NCBI GenBank assembly: GCA_902826615.1
Contig: CADEFN010000001.1
Location: 62,001 to 126,000, forward strand
Length of the DNA stretch: 64,000 bases
From: an uncultured Gemmatimonadota bacterium
Lineage (GTDB): Bacteria; Gemmatimonadota; Gemmatimonadetes; Gemmatimonadales; Gemmatimonadaceae
Direction: 5' to 3'
Below the pieces are notes generated by a model. The model saw nothing but the letters and a program-made list of their open reading frames with translations. It was not told the origin of the DNA and did no database searches. The position numbers and the translations under genes were made by a program. Positions 49,659 through 59,612 of this stretch are shown piece after piece; position 1 is the first letter of the stretch, and each line of letters opens with the position of its first letter.

Positions 49659-51893
49659 ATGCACTCTCGGCACCCTCCCGAGCCAACCCGCCACTCCATG
49701 GAAGACCGGCTCGACAACCCGCCCTTCGGACTCGCCGACCTCACGAACTGTGAGCGCGAGCAGATTCACCTGCCTGGGTCGATCCAGCCGCACGGGGTGC
49801 TGCTGGTGCTGAGTGGTGCCGACCTCCGTATTATCCAGGTCACCGAGAATGCCGAACTGATGCTCGGTTTGCATCACGAGGCATTGCTTGGTCAGCCTGT
49901 CGAAGTACTCGGTGGTGATATTCCGGCCACCATCCGCCGTCTGGCCACACCCGACTCGGCGTCGATCCCGCATCCGTTTCATGGGACCTCGGCCGCCGAT
50001 GGTCTTGCCCGCGGATTCGAGGGGCTGATCCATCGCTATCCGGACGGCGGATTTGTCGTCGAGCTGGAACCCGCGAACCTGACGCAGGTGGCGGCACTGG
50101 CCCGCACGGTGCCCAAACAGCTCGCAGATTCCATTGCACGCATCGGCGCCGCGCCGACGATGGCCGACCTGGCCGACGAGGCCGTGTACGCATTTCGGGC
50201 GCTCATCGGGTACGACCGCGTGATGGTCTACCGATTCGATGCCGACGGCCATGGCGAGGTGGTTGCCGAAGCTCGCGAAGAGGAACTCGAACCCTACCTC
50301 GGGCTGCACTATCCGGCGACCGACATTCCGCAGCGCGCGCGCGAGTTGTACCTGCGCAATCGGGTGCGTCTGCTCGTCGACGTGAATTACGAGCCCGTTC
50401 CGCTCGTCCCACGCACGGCAACGATCACGGGTGATGACGTCGACATGTCGATGTGTTACCTGCGCAGCATGTCGCCATTGCACCTGCAATACCTGAAGAA
50501 CATGGGGGTCACCGGCACGCTGGTGGCCTCGCTGATTTTCGAAGGGCGTCTGTGGGGACTGATCGCCTGTCACCACTACAGCACGCGGCGTATGTCGTAC
50601 CCGTTGCGTGCGGGGTGTGAGCTGCTGGCGGAGGCGATCTCCACACGGATCACGGTGCTGGAGAACTATGCGCACACTCGCGCGGAAGTGCTGGTCCGCC
50701 GGCTGGAGTACTCGCTGATCGAGGCCACAGCCGCACAAGGCGATTGGCGTCGTGCGCTCTTTGATGAACCCCAGGCCCTGCTTCGTCTTGTTGGTGCTCG
50801 CGGCGTGGCGCTGGCCTACGACGACGAAGTGCTGACAGCGGGTGACGTGCCCGCCACGCCCGACGTCCGGCGACTCATTGCCTGGGTGGCCGCGCACAGC
50901 ACGGAGCCGGTGTTCTCGAGCCGCGCACTCACCCGTGATCATCCGGAGTTTCGTGCCCTGCACCCGACGGGCACTGGAGTGCTGGCGGTGGAGATTTCGC
51001 GCAACGACCATGAGTACCTGATCTGGTTCCGCGCGGAACAGGTGGAGCAGGTCCAGTGGGCCGGCGACCCCAAAAAGCCGATGCTCCCCGGCAACGACCC
51101 GCTTGACCTGTCACCGCGACGCTCCTTTGCGGTGTGGACCGAGCAGGTACAGGGGACGGCGATGCCGTGGACACCCGCGGACCTCGTGACAGCACGCGCG
51201 GTGGGTGTGTCGTTGCGCGATATCGTGCTGCAGGTGCGCGCCATGAGCCTGCTGCTGGCCGAACATCGTCTCTCCCGCATCCGCCGCTCGGTGCAGGTGG
51301 CCGATGAAGGCGTCCTGGTTGCCGATGCGTCAGGGCATGTGCTGCATGCAAATGCCGCCTTTACCGACCTCTTCCCGCGCCAGCATGCCCCGATCAAGGC
51401 GTTAGGCGACCTCCCTGCCCTGTTCACCGATGTTTCTCGAGTACGCTCGCTCCTGGGAGAACTGCAGCGTACCAGTCGTGGGTGGCGTGGCGAGCTCATG
51501 CTCGACAACGCCGACACCGATGGCGTACCCGTGGCGGTCCGAGCCGACGCCGTGGGTGCGGGCAACGGCCCACCACTCGGCTTCATCCTCGTGTTCACTG
51601 ACCTGCGATTGCGTCGCCGGTCGAATCGCGCCCGCGAACGGCTGCAGCAGGCCATTGCCGACGCCCGTCTTCCTGTGGCCATGCCACTCACCGCGTGGGC
51701 CCGTACTGAGGACTTCGAGGCACTCATGCGTGCGCTGCTGGCCAACGCCAATGTCGCCGTTCACGAGATCACCGACGATGCATCCACGCCGTCGGTGGTC
51801 ACGATGCTGCAGGGGGTCGAGGAAAGCACCAAACGATCGGCAGAACTCACCCGGCTCATGCAGTCCTACGCGAGGGATGAGCCCTCGGTCTGA
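49659..51893 (+). CDS. bphP: Bacteriophytochrome photosensor lacking a kinase domain
   Basis: A 744-residue red/far-red photoreceptor. The PAS-GAF-PHY core is intact: CEREQIHLPGSIQPHG holds the biliverdin-binding Cys (Cys31, or Cys18 from the ATG at 49698), YPATDIPQRARELY is the GAF chromophore motif, MSPLHLQYLKNMG carries the conserved His, and SPRRSFAVW is the PRxSF motif of the PHY tongue. After PHY comes one more PAS domain (GVLVADASGHVLHANAAF) and a helical tail ending near residue 744. No HisKA, HATPase, GGDEF or EAL domain follows, so output must be by protein contact or oligomer change. The heme oxygenase gene is directly convergent, 3 bp away. Confidence 0.92.
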   Translation: MHSRHPPEPTRHSMEDRLDNPPFGLADLTNCEREQIHLPGSIQPHGVLLVLSGADLRIIQVTENAELMLGLHHEALLGQPVEVLGGDIPATIRRLATPDSASIPHPFHGTSAADGLARGFEGLIHRYPDGGFVVELEPANLTQVAALARTVPKQLADSIARIGAAPTMADLADEAVYAFRALIGYDRVMVYRFDADGHGEVVAEAREEELEPYLGLHYPATDIPQRARELYLRNRVRLLVDVNYEPVPLVPRTATITGDDVDMSMCYLRSMSPLHLQYLKNMGVTGTLVASLIFEGRLWGLIACHHYSTRRMSYPLRAGCELLAEAISTRITVLENYAHTRAEVLVRRLEYSLIEATAAQGDWRRALFDEPQALLRLVGARGVALAYDDEVLTAGDVPATPDVRRLIAWVAAHSTEPVFSSRALTRDHPEFRALHPTGTGVLAVEISRNDHEYLIWFRAEQVEQVQWAGDPKKPMLPGNDPLDLSPRRSFAVWTEQVQGTAMPWTPADLVTARAVGVSLRDIVLQVRAMSLLLAEHRLSRIRRSVQVADEGVLVADASGHVLHANAAFTDLFPRQHAPIKALGDLPALFTDVSRVRSLLGELQRTSRGWRGELMLDNADTDGVPVAVRADAVGAGNGPPLGFILVFTDLRLRRRSNRARERLQQAIADARLPVAMPLTAWARTEDFEALMRALLANANVAVHEITDDASTPSVVTMLQGVEESTKRSAELTRLMQSYARDEPSV

Positions 51894-51896
51894 GTG

Positions 51897-52517
51897 CTAC
51901 CGCGGCGTGGCCAGCTGTTCGAAGAGCCGTTCGTGCGCCGCAAACGACTCGAGGGCTTCGGCCACGATGGCGTCGCCACCGTCGGTCACCGGCAGTGCAT
52001 CCAGCGAAGCGCGAAAGGCAGTCTTGAAGGCGCCGAAATCGGGGATCGCCGGAAAAGTGTAAAAGGCCACCCCGTGATCGTCGGGGAGAGTGAAGATGCG
52101 GCGCACGACCCCACGCAGCGCCTGCCCTCCACTCAGGTCGCCCATGTAGCGCACGTAGGCGTGAGCGCTCACCACCTCGGGGTCGCCTGATGCATTCAGC
52201 CGGTCAGCGAGTTCCTGTGCCGCCGGCTCCAGGGGCAGCGCGCGCCACTCGGCGCCGCCAAAGAACGCGGCATCCGCTTCCAGCGCATCCCGTCGCCACA
52301 AGCCCGGATGGACAAACGGTGCAATGAAGGGCGAGAGCGCGTGCCGTTGCATGGCCGGCTCCAGCGCGTCGTACACACCGTGCAGGTTGCGAAGGAGACG
52401 GGCATAGGTCCGCCGCTCGATCTGCCCCCGCAGAAAGTCCGGCATGATACCGGCGCGCTCGGCCCGCATATGCGTGTCGCGCGTCTCTTCCCTGAGACGC
52501 GCAGCAAGTCCGCTCAT
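51897..52517 (-). CDS. bphO: Heme oxygenase (biliverdin-producing, BphO-type)
   Basis: A 206-residue heme oxygenase of the bacterial biliverdin-forming type. The proximal His is in LREETRDTHMRAE (His16), and the distal-helix motif is YVRYMGDLSGGQALRGV with the conserved Gly pair. The enzyme makes the chromophore for the adjacent phytochrome, whose gene ends 3 bp away on the other strand. Its ATG overlaps the stop of the upstream amidohydrolase (52514-52517), so its expression is tied to that gene rather than to the photoreceptor. Confidence 0.92.
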   Translation of the reverse strand: MSGLAARLREETRDTHMRAERAGIMPDFLRGQIERRTYARLLRNLHGVYDALEPAMQRHALSPFIAPFVHPGLWRRDALEADAAFFGGAEWRALPLEPAAQELADRLNASGDPEVVSAHAYVRYMGDLSGGQALRGVVRRIFTLPDDHGVAFYTFPAIPDFGAFKTAFRASLDALPVTDGGDAIVAEALESFAAHERLFEQLATPR

Positions 52518-54445
52518 GGTGTGAACCGCGCACGCACCGGGCTATCTCCATCCAGCCAGAGCGTAATGGTGCGCGGTGTTCCCTCCACATGGGGATCGGC
52601 CGCTTCCATGGTGAGCGTAAAGGAGCGCTCGTCACCGGTCGAGGGGCGCGCGAGACGACCGGAGATGCTCCACCACCCCGGTGCGGTCTGCAACACGCCA
52701 AGAGCGCTGGAGTTGGCCGCCTCCTTTCCATCCGGGCTGCGTAACGTGATGGTGCCCGTGGCTGTCCGGCTCCCCGCGGCCTGACGCACATCGACCGTGA
52801 TCCGCAGCGGCATCGCGCCATCGGTGATGGGCTGGGCCAGCCCGCGTGCGTTCCAGCGACGTGCGCTCGTGGCCGATGTCATCGGCCGGCTCGGCATGAA
52901 CGAGTGGCGGTACATCGCACGACCCGCTCGTGTAGTGGTGGTCTTGCCATCACGCCACGCCACCTTGCCGTTCACGACAACATGGCGAATGCCTTCGGAC
53001 ATCAGGCCGGGCTCCTGGAAGGTGGCACGATCGATCACGGTGGCGGTGTCGAAGATCGTGAGGTCGGCATGCATCCCTGGCGCGATGTAGCCGCGGTCAA
53101 TCATCCCCACCATGGTGGCGGGGAGCGCCGTCATCTTGCGAATGGCGTTTTCCCAGGTGAGGTGCTTCTGCTCCCGCACATATCGGCCGAGCACGCGGGG
53201 AAACGTGCCAAAGTTGCGCGGATGACCGGTGGGCTGGCTGGTGGCGCCACAATCACACGACACCGCCGCACCGGGATACTGCAGAATTTTCACGAGGTCG
53301 CTTTCCTCGCCGAACCCCAGGATGGTTCTCTCGTCCGAGGTTTCGAGAATCCGTACGACCGCTTCGGCCGGTGAGGTGGTGCCAAACTCCTTCATGTAGT
53401 CGCTGAGGTAGCGACGGCTGGACAAAATGAGAATACCATCTGGGCCGGTAAAGCGTCCGGCGATGGTTTCGTCGGCTTCGGTGATGATCCGCTTGCGGGT
53501 CTCGGGGTCGGCGAAGCGCTTCCGCATTTCGACGGGCCCACCATTCATGGCCCAGCCCGGGATGATCAGGGAGCTGAGCCCGGTCATCCCGGAGAGGTAG
53601 GGGTAGACGTCGGCGCCCACGTAAACCCCGCGTGCGCTGTACGAAGCCATCTCGCCGAGTACCACCTGGCCCTTCGTTCGTTCGCGGCCCGACACCTTCA
53701 TGTGGGTGATCACCGGTACCAGCCCCGCCCGTTCCCCAATGCGCATCGTTTCCTGCACCGCCGACCGGGCGCTGTAGCCGGTTTGGGGGAGTACACGATC
53801 GTGGTTGGGGAAGTTGGTGCGCCACACCCGCGCGGGCGACACCACCCGCACCACCTCATCCTCCGTGGCAAAGAAGCCCGGCTTGTAGTCGAGCCCCGAC
53901 GACACCGCAAAGGCGCCCCACTCCAGGTTGGAGCGGATCAGCCCCTGCATTTTGGCCATCTCTTCGGCGTTTGGGCGACGATCGGTCTGGCCCATCACAC
54001 TGGCCCAGACACTGTTGAAGCCGACCGCCGCGCCAACGTTGAGGGCGATGCCTGACGAGTCGAGTGACTTGAGCTGCTGCCGGATATTGAGCGGGCTGCT
54101 GCCATCGGCATTGAGGATTTCAGTCGTGACGCCCTGACTCAGCATGTTGTCCGCGGTCTGCAGCCCTCGGGCCTCCGCGTGCGAGTGCAGGTTGATGAAA
54201 CCCGGCGTGACCATCAGTCCCGACGCGTCCAGCACCTCGGTGCTTTTCCGCGCCGACAGGTCACCGATCGCGACAATGCGGTCGCCCAGGACGCCAACGT
54301 CGGCACGAAAACGGCGCCCGCCGCTCCCATCGATAACCGTCCCACCTCGCACAATGAGGTCGAGCGGGGGTGGCTGGACGTCGAGACCGAGACTGGCGGC
54401 GGCGAGGGTGGCAATCGCCAGGAACGGAAGGATGCGTTTTCTCAC
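52514..54445 (-). CDS. Exported D-aminoacylase-like amidohydrolase
   Basis: A 643-residue amidohydrolase with a signal peptide (FLAIATLAAASLG). The metal motif reads HSHAEA, and LEWGAFAVSSGLDYKPG, VITHMKVSGRE and YPYLSGMT follow the N-acyl-D-amino-acid deacylase/D-aminoacylase plan. SCDCGATSQPTGHPRNFGTFPRVLGRYVRE is the conserved late block with the catalytic Asp. An extra 110-residue C-terminal beta domain (after about residue 530, RITVDVRQAAG onward) is unusual. The substrate may be acylated D-amino acids or peptidoglycan-derived peptides. The stop overlaps bphO by 4 bp, an odd partner for a deacylase. Confidence 0.87.
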   Translation of the reverse strand: MRKRILPFLAIATLAAASLGLDVQPPPLDLIVRGGTVIDGSGGRRFRADVGVLGDRIVAIGDLSARKSTEVLDASGLMVTPGFINLHSHAEARGLQTADNMLSQGVTTEILNADGSSPLNIRQQLKSLDSSGIALNVGAAVGFNSVWASVMGQTDRRPNAEEMAKMQGLIRSNLEWGAFAVSSGLDYKPGFFATEDEVVRVVSPARVWRTNFPNHDRVLPQTGYSARSAVQETMRIGERAGLVPVITHMKVSGRERTKGQVVLGEMASYSARGVYVGADVYPYLSGMTGLSSLIIPGWAMNGGPVEMRKRFADPETRKRIITEADETIAGRFTGPDGILILSSRRYLSDYMKEFGTTSPAEAVVRILETSDERTILGFGEESDLVKILQYPGAAVSCDCGATSQPTGHPRNFGTFPRVLGRYVREQKHLTWENAIRKMTALPATMVGMIDRGYIAPGMHADLTIFDTATVIDRATFQEPGLMSEGIRHVVVNGKVAWRDGKTTTTRAGRAMYRHSFMPSRPMTSATSARRWNARGLAQPITDGAMPLRITVDVRQAAGSRTATGTITLRSPDGKEAANSSALGVLQTAPGWWSISGRLARPSTGDERSFTLTMEAADPHVEGTPRTITLWLDGDSPVRARFTP

Positions 54446-54722: not shown

Positions 54723-55643
54723 ATGCTGGCCTATTCACAAGCGGCAGAAGCGATGCTGCAAATGCTGCAACACCGGACAGGTTTCGCCCTCTGGATGCTG
54801 ACGCAGCGCGATGATCGTGGACTCCTTACGGTGATCGAGCGCACGGAATCGGCGTACGGAATCGAAAATGGCGATGTGCTCCCATCGGTGGGGTCGTATT
54901 GCGAGGAAATGCTGAGCTCGGGTCGGCCACTGGTGATCCCCGATACACACGCCCGCGGCGACACGCCCCGTGCGTTGCAACTGCCAGTCGGTGCGTACAT
55001 CGGGATACCGGTGCGAAACCCCGACGGGTCGCTCTTCGGCTCGTTGTGTGGCATCGATCCCCTCGCGGCCCCTTCATCGATAGCTGACGATGCGCAGTTC
55101 TTCCGCTCGGTTGGCGCGGCGCTGAGCACACTCCTCGAACTCGAGTCGACCACGCTGGCAGCGCAGGCGCAGGCCCACACACTCATGGCGGCCGCAACAC
55201 ACGACTCGCTCACGGGATTGCTGAATCGCCGAGGATGGGACGAGGCCGTTGCCTGTGCCGATGCCTTCTGCGCGCGCCACGACTGCGACGCGACGGTGAT
55301 CGCCATCGACCTCGACGACCTCAAGGAGACCAACGACGCACGGGGTCACGCGGCCGGAGATCTGCTCCTGCAGCGCACCGCCCGTGCCATCACGCGTGCC
55401 GTGCGTGCCACCGATGTGACGGCGCGCATTGGCGGTGATGAGTTTCTGGTATTGGCGCACGCGCCGGTCAACTCTACCGAAGGGCGCCGGCTGCACGAGC
55501 GGCTGCTCACGACACTGGCACACGAGGGCGTGTGTGCCTCACTCGGCTCGGCGACACGCATCGACAGTGGGTCAGTGGCGGCCGCCTGGCAGGTGGCCGA
55601 CGTGCGGATGTACGCGCAGAAACGCAGACAAACCGTGCGCTGA
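54723..55643 (+). CDS. Diguanylate cyclase with GAF sensor domain
   Basis: A 306-residue soluble GAF-GGDEF protein. The GAF domain (about 15-150) includes SYCEEMLSSGRPLVIPD and YIGIPVRNPDGSLFGSLCGIDP. A short helix (TLLELESTTLAAQAQAHTLM) links it to the cyclase, whose DSLTGLLNRRGW and intact RIGGDEFLVL (GGDEF near residues 236-240) indicate activity. The inhibitory RxxD site is not evident upstream of GGDEF. A good ribosome-binding site (GGAG) precedes the ATG. The nearby phytochrome and the distant PilZ protein (38853) make a light-to-c-di-GMP link conceivable, but there is no operon. Confidence 0.92.
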   Translation: MLAYSQAAEAMLQMLQHRTGFALWMLTQRDDRGLLTVIERTESAYGIENGDVLPSVGSYCEEMLSSGRPLVIPDTHARGDTPRALQLPVGAYIGIPVRNPDGSLFGSLCGIDPLAAPSSIADDAQFFRSVGAALSTLLELESTTLAAQAQAHTLMAAATHDSLTGLLNRRGWDEAVACADAFCARHDCDATVIAIDLDDLKETNDARGHAAGDLLLQRTARAITRAVRATDVTARIGGDEFLVLAHAPVNSTEGRRLHERLLTTLAHEGVCASLGSATRIDSGSVAAAWQVADVRMYAQKRRQTVR

Positions 55644-56089: not shown

Positions 56090-56688
56090 ATACGCACCAG
56101 GGGTCGCGGGTTCCCGTGACCACCATACACCGTCGTCGCCCCACGTGCGATCAGCGCGTCCCAGCTCCGGTGCACCACCTCTTCATCCTCTGTGGCAATC
56201 AGGGAGGGATGTGTGAGGTCACCCGTGAAGGCGGCCCCATTGTCGAGCACGAGCGTGACGGAATCGCTGGAGTGACCGGGCGTATGCACAATTTCGCCAG
56301 CCATCCCGAGCTCGGCGAGAAAGGTGCGGCTCTCCTCCAATGGCACCAGGACGTTATCGTGGGTGGTAATCTCGGTGTAGTTGTCGGTGGGTTTGGTCCA
56401 CTGCGTCATCTGCCCGATGAAATCGACCTGCTCGGGGGTGACGATGAGCTGCATGCCACGAAGCTTGAGGTCCTGCGCAGCACCGGCGTGGTCGATGTGA
56501 TAGTGCGTCGCCAGTCCATAGCGAACTTCGGCGAGCGGGATGTCCATGCGCTGCAAATTGGAAAGTAGCGTCCCGACCATGCCGGGCCAGCCGAGATCCA
56601 CGAGCAGCCGCGAGCGACCGGCACTGATCACCCAGAAGTTTGTTGACCGGTAGCCAACATTCACAATTGTCGGATCAGCCATGATCAC
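56083..56688 (-). CDS. Metallo-beta-lactamase fold hydrolase
   Basis: A 201-residue zinc hydrolase. THYHIDHAG is the HxHxDH motif near residue 62, HTPGHSSDSVTL holds the next His, TGDLTH the bridging Asp, and GGHGNPRPL the last His. It has no signal peptide. GTG at 56688 overlaps the amidohydrolase stop (GTGA), and an ATG at 56682 is also possible. The position within an operon of exported amidohydrolases suggests a shared catabolic pathway, but the substrate cannot be inferred. Confidence 0.9.
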   Translation of the reverse strand: MIMADPTIVNVGYRSTNFWVISAGRSRLLVDLGWPGMVGTLLSNLQRMDIPLAEVRYGLATHYHIDHAGAAQDLKLRGMQLIVTPEQVDFIGQMTQWTKPTDNYTEITTHDNVLVPLEESRTFLAELGMAGEIVHTPGHSSDSVTLVLDNGAAFTGDLTHPSLIATEDEEVVHRSWDALIARGATTVYGGHGNPRPLVRIW

Positions 56689-59612
56689 CGTTTCAGCAAC
56701 TCCTTGATGTCGAATACACGCCCATTGGCCACCGTGTAACGTACCCGGGTGGTGGCGGTAATGTCTTCCAGCGGGTTTCCCTCGACGATGGCGAGGTCCG
56801 CGAGTTTGCCCGCCGCAATAATTCCGGCGTTGAGTCCCAGCATCTCGGCGCTGTTCACCGTGGCCGCACGCAGGGCCTCGTACGGCGTCATGCCAGCCAG
56901 CACATACGAATACAGCTCGCCGTGCAGGGTGGCCGCGTTCGGCGTGTCGGTACCCGCGACCACGCGTGTTCCGGCGCGCATGAGTCCCATCACCATCTGC
57001 CCTCCCGCGCTGGGGTCCACGGCGCCCGGGGGTGCACCCAGGGTGGCCGAGCCGGACACGGTCGCCTGGAGCCAGGGTGGGTAGAGCGCAAAACGTGCGT
57101 CGGTTGTGAGCGAGGGGTCCTTGTCCACCAGCCGCCGGAAGCCACCACCACCTAACGCGAGGGTGGGCGTGATGGGCATACCCGACACATTGAAGAGCTG
57201 CGCGACATCACTATACGAACGTTGCAGGGTTGCCGCCTTGGGTGAATACCCGCGCCTGCTGGTGCCGGTGGTGTGCTCCGTGCCGTCCATTCCCGAGAGG
57301 GCTGCCGGGAAGATCTCGTGCGACGCCGCTGGCACCCCCATCCCGTGGGCAAACTCGAGAATGCGCTTCTGTTGCAAGTCGGGCATGCGTACATAACTCT
57401 TGAGCAGGTCATGCTGCAGCGCCCGCGCCCGTTCCAGTTCGAGGGTGAGATGGGCTTCGCTGCTGATGGCCACTGCCATCTTGTAGTACACCCGCTGCCA
57501 CTCCATGAGGTAGCCTGTGACAAACAATCGGGGGCCGGGCCGGACACCGGCATCAACCGCCTCACGGTCTTCCACCGCTTCGTACGGTGTGCCTCCAGGG
57601 CTGCGAACCGTGGTGATGCCAAAGCCGAGATAGGCGCGCCCGGACGCTTCACCCAGATCCTTCTGCAAATGTGTGTGAAACTCGATGAGCCCCGGCATGA
57701 CCGTGAGCCCCGACGCATCAACAACCCGTGCGCCGCGCGCGTTGGCCGCCGCATGTGGCACAACACGTTCGATCCGGTTGCCCACAATGACGATGTCGAC
57801 GTTGTTGCGCACCGTCTGCGAGACCCCGTCCACCAGTTTGCCGGCGTGCACCACCACACGCTCGGCCGGCACGGCGGGACGGTAGCTGAGCGCGACCGGC
57901 ACATCGCGCACCGCGCCCGTCTCGGTGTTCATCAGGCGCAACTTGTCGTTTGACTGGTAGAGAATCTGGCGCGAGTCACCGCTCCAGCTGGGCGCGTGCG
58001 CAATTTCGGTGGTGAGTTTGCGTGGTGGTCCCAGTGGTTCACCCGTCGGTGACACCGGAACAGTGCTGAGCTGGCCCTCGTAGACGAGCGCGAGCCTGGT
58101 GCCATCGGGGGACCAGGCCGGACCGGCGCCCACGCGCGAGTCGATGGAGAGGTGTTTCGTTGGTGTGTACCACTGGTCGTCACCGCCGCTCGCTGCGATC
58201 GACAGGAGCTGGTTGGTACCTTCGCGGAAACGCGCCGAGTAGCGCTCGAGCGCCGCGAGCATGACGCGCTTGCCGTCGGCCGACCAGGTGGGCGCCCCCG
58301 GGCCGAACATCTGGTCGTGAATTTTTGTGCGCGCCCCGGTAGCGACATTCACCACCCACACACTCGCCGCGCGCCAGATCCCATCGACATCGAGGTAGGC
58401 GATCTGTTTGCCATCGCGTGACCAGGCCGCACCCATGGCCGACGTCGGCTCGGTGGTGAGACGCCGATTCTCCCCCGTTTCGGTGTCGTGAATCCAGAGG
58501 TCGAGCAGGGCACCCCCGCGGTCACTCGACCAGGCGATGTAACGACCGTCGGGTGACCAGGCGGGCTCCGCGTCGAGGGCCGCGTCGCTGGTGATGTTGC
58601 GTGGGGCTCCCCCAACCGGCATGACATGGAGATCGCCTAACGCAATAAAGGCAATCTGGCTGGCGTCGGGTGACAGGGCCGGCGACACAATTCCCAGCGC
58701 GCGGCGTGGCGCACGGGGCGTGACATCACGCGTGCGGCGCGAGTAGGTGGGACGTGTGACACGCAGTGTGGCGCTGAAGGGGATGGTTTGCGCCGCACCG
58801 CCGGCCGACGGGCGACGACGCAAGCGTCCGTCAGCGACGTAGACGATGTCTGTCCCGATCCACGCGGCGCGAAAGGCAAAGGCGTTCTCGTCACCCGTGA
58901 GCGGGGCTCCATCGAGCTCCAGACGACTCGATCCTCCCGCGCTGTTGTGATAGATGATCCGTCCTGACGGGCCCCACGACGGCGCGTCGTAGCGGCCGGG
59001 TGTTGTGGTGATCCGCCGCTCGACCCCGTTGGCAATGGTGGCGGCGTGAACACCGGGTGTGCCCCCGCGTGTCCCGATGAAGGCCACCGCGTCGCTGGTC
59101 GGAGAAAAGGCCGGCATGTAGTCGTCGCCGGGGTCCCGCGTGAGCTGATGCATTCCGCCGGTTGCCACTTCGAGCAACCAGATGTCGTAACTCCCGCTGC
59201 GATCGGATGAAAAGGCTACCCACTTGCCGTCGGGCGACCAGGCCGGTTCACGATCGTCGTACGGCCCCCAGGTGAGCTTGCGCAACGCCGTCCCATCAGT
59301 GTTGACCGCCCAGATATCGTAGCCCCCATCACGAAAGCCCTGGAAGGCAATCGACTTTCCATCGGGCGACCAGGTGGGCTGACGTGCGTCGTTGTATTCG
59401 TCGGTGATGCGTCGGGCCGGGCCGCCCGCCGCGGGAAGGACCCAAATACTCCCTTGCAGGTCGATGGCCAGCTGGCGTCCATCGGGGGAGGCCGCCACCG
59501 ACATGGAGGTGCCTTCGTTGACGACCACTTCGCGGGAGCCCGTGCCCGGCTGCGGCGCGGGGGCGAGCACCACCGCGGCCGCCAGCAGGGCCGCAGGACG
59601 TGACATCGGCAT
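56685..59612 (-). CDS. TolB-like beta-propeller fused to amidohydrolase, secreted
   Basis: A 975-residue exported enzyme. Residues about 30-560 are a WD40/TolB-type propeller with repeated PxWSPDGKxxAF phrases (PTWSPDGKSIAF, PAWSPDGKWVAF, PAWSPDGRYIAW and others). Residues 590-975 are an amidohydrolase domain with PGLIEFHTHLQKD (HxH), the later His pair in AASHEIFPA and DGTEHTTG, and GTDTPNAA as the catalytic Asp. It is common in environmental bacteria and is presumed to act on oligopeptides or cyclic amides, with the propeller as a substrate gate. It starts 2 bp after the upstream deacylase gene. Confidence 0.9.
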   Translation of the reverse strand: MPMSRPAALLAAAVVLAPAPQPGTGSREVVVNEGTSMSVAASPDGRQLAIDLQGSIWVLPAAGGPARRITDEYNDARQPTWSPDGKSIAFQGFRDGGYDIWAVNTDGTALRKLTWGPYDDREPAWSPDGKWVAFSSDRSGSYDIWLLEVATGGMHQLTRDPGDDYMPAFSPTSDAVAFIGTRGGTPGVHAATIANGVERRITTTPGRYDAPSWGPSGRIIYHNSAGGSSRLELDGAPLTGDENAFAFRAAWIGTDIVYVADGRLRRRPSAGGAAQTIPFSATLRVTRPTYSRRTRDVTPRAPRRALGIVSPALSPDASQIAFIALGDLHVMPVGGAPRNITSDAALDAEPAWSPDGRYIAWSSDRGGALLDLWIHDTETGENRRLTTEPTSAMGAAWSRDGKQIAYLDVDGIWRAASVWVVNVATGARTKIHDQMFGPGAPTWSADGKRVMLAALERYSARFREGTNQLLSIAASGGDDQWYTPTKHLSIDSRVGAGPAWSPDGTRLALVYEGQLSTVPVSPTGEPLGPPRKLTTEIAHAPSWSGDSRQILYQSNDKLRLMNTETGAVRDVPVALSYRPAVPAERVVVHAGKLVDGVSQTVRNNVDIVIVGNRIERVVPHAAANARGARVVDASGLTVMPGLIEFHTHLQKDLGEASGRAYLGFGITTVRSPGGTPYEAVEDREAVDAGVRPGPRLFVTGYLMEWQRVYYKMAVAISSEAHLTLELERARALQHDLLKSYVRMPDLQQKRILEFAHGMGVPAASHEIFPAALSGMDGTEHTTGTSRRGYSPKAATLQRSYSDVAQLFNVSGMPITPTLALGGGGFRRLVDKDPSLTTDARFALYPPWLQATVSGSATLGAPPGAVDPSAGGQMVMGLMRAGTRVVAGTDTPNAATLHGELYSYVLAGMTPYEALRAATVNSAEMLGLNAGIIAAGKLADLAIVEGNPLEDITATTRVRYTVANGRVFDIKELLKR

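Follow-up and report, generated by a model that had tools for sequence, protein, structure and literature searches.

How does a phytochrome with a complete light-sensing core and no histidine kinase pass its signal on? The question is raised by a gene, bphP, in a 64,000-nucleotide stretch of DNA (the window) from an uncultured bacterium of the phylum Gemmatimonadota, whose genome we refer to as G000. An earlier note on this DNA, made from the letters alone, had described a kinase-less bacteriophytochrome beside its heme oxygenase and had supposed that its output must be through partner binding. As we describe below, the architecture of the photoreceptor is itself known; what is surprising is its setting, that is, a light-dependent switch in a genome in which photosynthesis genes are not found, and which points instead to carotenoids.

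The photoreceptor, its output domain and its heme oxygenase

The bphP gene (49659-51893, + strand) is an intact open reading frame of 744 amino acids, without internal stops, and an SD-like GGAG lies 4 nt upstream of its ATG. A Pfam search of the product finds PAS_2 (residues 31-139), GAF (170-331), PHY (347-525) and PAS (550-649), and neither HisKA nor HATPase. The photosensory core is complete, as the earlier note had held. Cys31 (49749-49751, +), which we take to be the site of chromophore attachment from its established role in bacteriophytochromes, is invariant in all 74 aligned intact homologues of the type, and so are the Asp-Ile-Pro motif of the GAF domain (residues 222-224; 50322-50330, +), His275 and His305/306, and the P, R, S and F of the PRRSF tongue motif of the PHY domain (residues 486-490; 51114-51128, +). 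The product would be expected to bind biliverdin and to sense red and far-red light.

An uninterrupted reading frame of about 700-770 amino acids runs from the start of the match in 75 of 80 homologous loci. In the other five (L159, L203, L208, L226 and L233) no frame longer than 600 amino acids begins there, and these rows were dropped. The tree and the alignments exclude L179 and L224, which are copies of G087 and G093, and the structure alignment excludes L192, L193, L202 and L220.

The top PDB match of the whole protein is 4gw9, the BphP1 of Rhodopseudomonas palustris (598 bits), and the output PAS domain taken alone again has 4gw9 as its nearest match; compared with the R. palustris 2.1.18 protein, the window's phytochrome is 46% identical across 722 columns. 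The output PAS (51306-51605, +) matches Pfam PAS_9 with 31.3 bits and aligns structurally to 4gw9. Beyond it, the tail shares 22 of 55 residues (40%) with the HOS region of R. palustris BphP1, with an E-value of 7e-10 for this single comparison. Structure prediction of the C-terminal residues, which had been suggested as a check, is informative here: an AlphaFold model of the last 221 residues, built with 74 sequences, has a mean pLDDT of 88.5 and runs in the order helix, PAS, helix, two-helix hairpin, with the hairpin at about residues 684-706 and 711-740 (51708-51878, +). The model aligns to 4gw9 with Z 15.9 and an rmsd of 2.9 over 126 residues; rows beyond the PAS domain are barely tested by this alignment, which is not used for HOS. 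The predicted arrangement is the PAS9-HOS layout that PMC6899989 describes for type 3 bacteriophytochromes; according to that paper, HOS and the DHp domain are distantly homologous.

The canonical model for histidine-kinase bacteriophytochromes, NF041576, scores 387 bits against a curated cut-off of 1040, and HisKA is matched by one of the 74 C-termini of the family, weakly (E 4.5e-4). With its photosensory core, its Cys, DIP, His and PRxSF residues, a PAS9 domain followed by a two-helix HOS, and no kinase output, bphP belongs with RpBphP1 among the type 3, PAS9-HOS bacteriophytochromes; the architecture is already known and the protein is a further member of the class. Thus, the earlier description of the C-terminus as only a PAS domain and a helical tail was right about the missing kinase and incomplete about the tail, which is a recognised output domain.

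The adjacent gene bphO (51897-52517, -), the predicted heme oxygenase for the biliverdin chromophore (PF01126, 174 bits), is convergent with bphP, their ends lying 3 bp apart as had been noted. Relatives share this layout: bphP and heme oxygenase converge within 400 bp at 52 of the 63 loci that have a heme oxygenase. The start of bphO overlaps the stop of an amidohydrolase gene (52514-54445) by 4 bp (52514-52517). The coupling to the amidohydrolase that the earlier note had pointed out looks incidental: in the related phototroph locus L066 the heme oxygenase start overlaps, likewise by 4 bp, the end of a hemY-like gene instead, while the convergent layout is the rule. Near this smaller amidohydrolase the window also encodes a large protein that combines an amidohydrolase domain with PD40 beta-propeller repeats (56685-59612, -).

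PpsR as the candidate partner

According to PMC6899989, RpBphP1 uses its HOS helices to bind the repressor PpsR2 in a light-dependent manner. When we search the genome of the window for such a partner, we find one strong PpsR gene (G000:C3:251893-253206; TIGR02040, 416 bits where the cut-off is 275.4) whose product has PAS domains and a Fis-type helix-turn-helix (HTH_8), and whose recognition region, DNRTAAAELLGLSRQSLYVKLRR, is near letter-for-letter that of phototrophic relatives. By analogy with RpBphP1, the bphP product probably acts by gripping the repressor PpsR. Output through partner binding, as proposed earlier, is favoured by this analogy and by the presence of PpsR, although the proposal had not recognised the tail as HOS and had left the partner unnamed.

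The system resembles RpBphP1/PpsR2 of R. palustris in domain order, HOS homology, adjacent heme oxygenase and the occurrence of PpsR in the genome. It differs in that the R. palustris pair controls photosynthesis genes within their cluster, whereas here no cluster is found and ppsR lies on another contig. The contigs of bphP and ppsR are 1.38 Mb and 0.72 Mb long, and the neighbours of both genes are unrelated to photosynthesis, those of ppsR being Nudix, sortilin-like and subtilase genes.

Is the company of PpsR general? Among 298 genomes of the phylum Gemmatimonadota, 17 have a phytochrome match, 39 have PpsR and 34 have a reaction centre; all 34 reaction-centre genomes also have PpsR. A HOS-type phytochrome occurs in ten (G000, G028, G087, G093, G129, G166, G170, G182, G248 and G290). 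PpsR is present in each of these ten, compared with the background of 39/298 (hypergeometric 4.9e-10, kinship ignored), and the reaction centre in seven of them. The remaining seven phytochrome genomes match over the sensory core only, and four of these have PpsR.

Across named bacteria, the best 80 loci hold PpsR in their flanks in 72 cases and a heme oxygenase in 63. At least one photosynthesis marker is found at 63 of these 80 loci, and at 40 of the 47 with full flanks, where bchI/bchD and the crtC-like query count as the less specific markers. We had entertained the idea that proteobacterial cassettes of HOS-phytochrome and PpsR lie mostly outside photosynthesis clusters, and dropped it when more markers raised the count to this level; it follows that the crtB/crtI genes which neighbour ppsR at nine of these loci probably belong to clusters as well. 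A site lies strictly upstream of ppsR at 21 of 52 cassette loci, with about 3.8 expected; the count stood at 22 of 52 before the removal of L172, whose site lies inside the coding start.

In phototrophic relatives, bphP, heme oxygenase, hem genes, bchP, bchG, ppsR and aerR are contiguous (names by resemblance). The window's phytochrome groups with that of G093 (support 98), a phototroph of the same phylum whose HOS-type bphP is likewise convergent with a heme oxygenase, and because the tree joins the two, an origin of the gene within the phylum is likely. PMC7844134 reports BphP and BphO in Gemmatimonas groenlandica, with BphP annotated there as a 'two-component sensor histidine kinase'. G. 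groenlandica and the related Gemmatimonadota hosts are phototrophs, which the bacterium of this genome seems not to be.

The search for photosynthesis genes

The genome, in 98 contigs and 99.12% complete, was searched for three photosynthesis markers. It yields no match to the reaction centre (Photo_RC), no match to BchX and no credible PucC, the best PUCC match in the genome reaching 26 bits; for the PUCC family, 8 of 14 control genomes also exceed the cut-off. The PpsR found here is like the PpsR/CrtJ proteins of purple bacteria and other Gemmatimonadota in its family (TIGR02040), its PAS domains and Fis-type helix-turn-helix, and its operator type; unlike those, it occurs without a reaction centre, BchX or credible PucC. 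The photosynthesis gene cluster seems to have been lost, or never kept, by this host, and we infer a loss of phototrophy. A search among open-access papers brought up no account of BphP-PpsR in a genome that lacks photosynthesis genes.

It is important to ask whether the host could instead be phototrophic in the ordinary way, with a photosynthesis gene cluster that is missing from the assembly or the bin and is controlled by BphP and PpsR as usual. The fragmentation of the assembly into 98 contigs speaks for this, as do two other genomes that have PpsR without a reaction centre: G028 has bchP/bchG-type neighbours, and G166 carries a PUCC protein (476 bits; L148:4159-5574) and BchE (796 bits; L147:3693-5657), the row of which is preceded by a tandem PpsR site. 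We had considered G166 as a second non-phototroph and rejected it on account of these genes; neither a reaction centre nor BchX was found in it. Against a missing cluster stand the completeness of 99.12% with none of the three markers found, and the position of bphP and ppsR on long contigs with neighbours of other kinds, where the relatives' copies lie within or beside the cluster. The two other searched genomes of the genus are also without a reaction centre. We consider a missing cluster unlikely.

The crtB promoter and the alternatives to a proposed carotenoid switch

The operators of PpsR are palindromes of the form TGTN12ACA. Of 40 crtB loci from genomes with PpsR, 21 have this pattern in the 400 bp upstream of the gene, as against none of 6 from genomes without PpsR (Fisher 0.019, kinship ignored), and the relatives' sites are often tandem boxes 25 bp apart. 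We derive a motif from 23 sites in relatives, of which 21 precede crtB and 2 a bchI-like gene, excluding the window's own genome, and with it we scan 124 kb of that genome (the window, L010, L011 and L089). The site TGTCAGGTATAATGTACA, in the promoter of crtB (phytoene synthase), scores 18.4 bits and ranks first among about 124,000 positions, the next score being 10.9; 13 of 20,000 surrogates of the crtB region reach 18.4 bits. The site stops 17 bp upstream of the crtB ATG and encloses TATAAT, the -10 box, and the operon that follows is crtB-cruF-crtI (from Pfam/NCBIfam). Its score is below that of most site-bearing relatives (mostly 20-27 bits), and a second tandem box at this promoter is poor (-0.4 bits). 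A separate ranking of promoters is unfit as a control, several of its loci having been chosen for their sites. From the motif and the conservation of its recognition region, the PpsR of this bacterium is predicted to bind TGTN12ACA operators.

Genome-wide, TGTN12ACA is not enriched (621 matches versus 601 in the control), and no match lies upstream of bphP, the heme oxygenase gene or ppsR in this genome. The extended half-site TGTMAN10ACA has 72 matches in the genome versus 44 in the control. The highest-scoring of these, at C11:41353 (L140:2854-2871), reaches 19.5 bits and so exceeds the 18.4 bits at crtB; this palindrome sits between two divergent small genes, among further small genes of unknown kind. 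The other high sites that we examined lie inside genes or upstream of genes without an evident link to light.

The congener G029 has no PpsR or phytochrome over thresholds, and its crtB site is absent. The site is absent as well in the seven HOS-type genomes of genus g2 and in G166, while G093 has no crtB over threshold. Because the other nine HOS-type genomes thus show no crtB site, a wiring from BphP to crtB is seen in this genome only. For G. phototrophica, PMC11406998 reports a single PpsR site in the photosynthesis cluster, at bchID, which is in keeping with the tandem pair of PpsR-type sites that precedes the bchI-like gene of G129.

The carotenoid operon crtB-cruF-crtI would then be the best-supported remaining target of PpsR, as judged from promoter sequence. 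In the mechanism that we propose, the convergent heme oxygenase would supply biliverdin to the phytochrome, light would switch it, and its HOS helices would open and bind the PpsR encoded elsewhere in the genome; the sequestration of PpsR would lift repression and free crtB-cruF-crtI. Binding to PpsR, the polarity of the light response and the control of carotenoids are all predictions, and far-red light is put forward as the activator on the polarity of RpBphP1. We judge such a BphP-PpsR switch, acting on crtB-cruF-crtI in a host without a photosynthesis cluster, to be the best explanation of the locus, and hold it to be somewhat more probable than the contrary. The fuller history, in which the BphP1-PpsR switch with BphO outlived anoxygenic photosynthesis and was rewired to photoprotective carotenoids in a heterotroph, with its operator within the crtB core promoter, we put forward tentatively, at slightly below an even chance. 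If it is true, a regulator would be shown to survive the loss of the machinery that shaped its evolution. The bacterium would offer a naturally occurring, minimal BphP1-PpsR circuit whose predicted output is one operon, for a pair already used in optogenetics, and a direct test of the role of PpsR outside photosynthesis.

Alternatively, BphP and PpsR could be functionless, decaying remnants of lost phototrophy. In the PpsR tree, in which the rows of G243 and G145 are absent, the PpsR of this genome has a long branch (1.1) and an uncertain placement; the long branch is compatible with relaxed constraint, and the scattering of the genes and the single weak operator fit decay as well. Decay is also known in relatives, four of which have phytochromes without the Cys, DIP and PRxSF residues and one of which has the gene split into two reading frames. 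Yet the present genome preserves every chromophore residue, the heme oxygenase, HOS and the recognition helix of PpsR while overall identity is at 46-50%, an outcome unlikely in the absence of selection; moreover, a strong motif falls precisely at the crtB promoter. We regard decay as quite unlikely.

The phytochrome might also act through some other partner, such as a GAF-GGDEF protein or an unknown one, leaving PpsR independent. A gene for a GAF-GGDEF diguanylate cyclase (54723-55643, +) does lie 2.8 kb from bphP, and XccBphP of Xanthomonas campestris (5akp), which is like the present protein in being type 3, with a PAS9 output and no kinase, is given a different biological role in PMC6899989. 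XccBphP is there described as having no HOS, hence its other output, unlike the phytochrome of the window. The GGDEF gene, moreover, belongs to no bphP operon and is not co-oriented with the operon of bphO, and HOS homology and co-occurrence favour PpsR, which makes another partner quite unlikely.

That a frameshift past 51893 conceals a histidine kinase or other effector, the outcome that the earlier note had set against itself, we looked for and reject as having next to no probability: bphO and the amidohydrolase gene occupy the opposite strand, all three forward frames are closed by many stops, the Pfam content shows no kinase, and 75 of the 80 homologous loci share the uninterrupted frame of similar length.

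The survey of relatives yields some minor observations. The phytochromes at L018:939-3158(-), L071:9333-11609(+), L073:3590-5767(+) and L074:3328-5580(+), from four relatives with small genomes (G170, G028, G290 and G248), are those without the chromophore Cys, DIP and PRxSF. They keep PHY, PAS and HOS, their host genomes retain PpsR, and no heme oxygenase is recognised among the listed genes next to them; they appear to be PpsR partners that are blind to light. The HOS-type phytochrome of G182 is the one split into two reading frames (L070:14385-16636(-)). In G166, a B12-binding AerR-like gene, ppsR and bphP stand in one row (L069:7300-11687(-)). Finally, at L170 and L217 (Burkholderiales) the PpsR adjacent to bphP has a degraded C-terminal helix-turn-helix, unlike the PpsR of Gemmatimonadota photosynthesis clusters, and is perhaps not a DNA binder.
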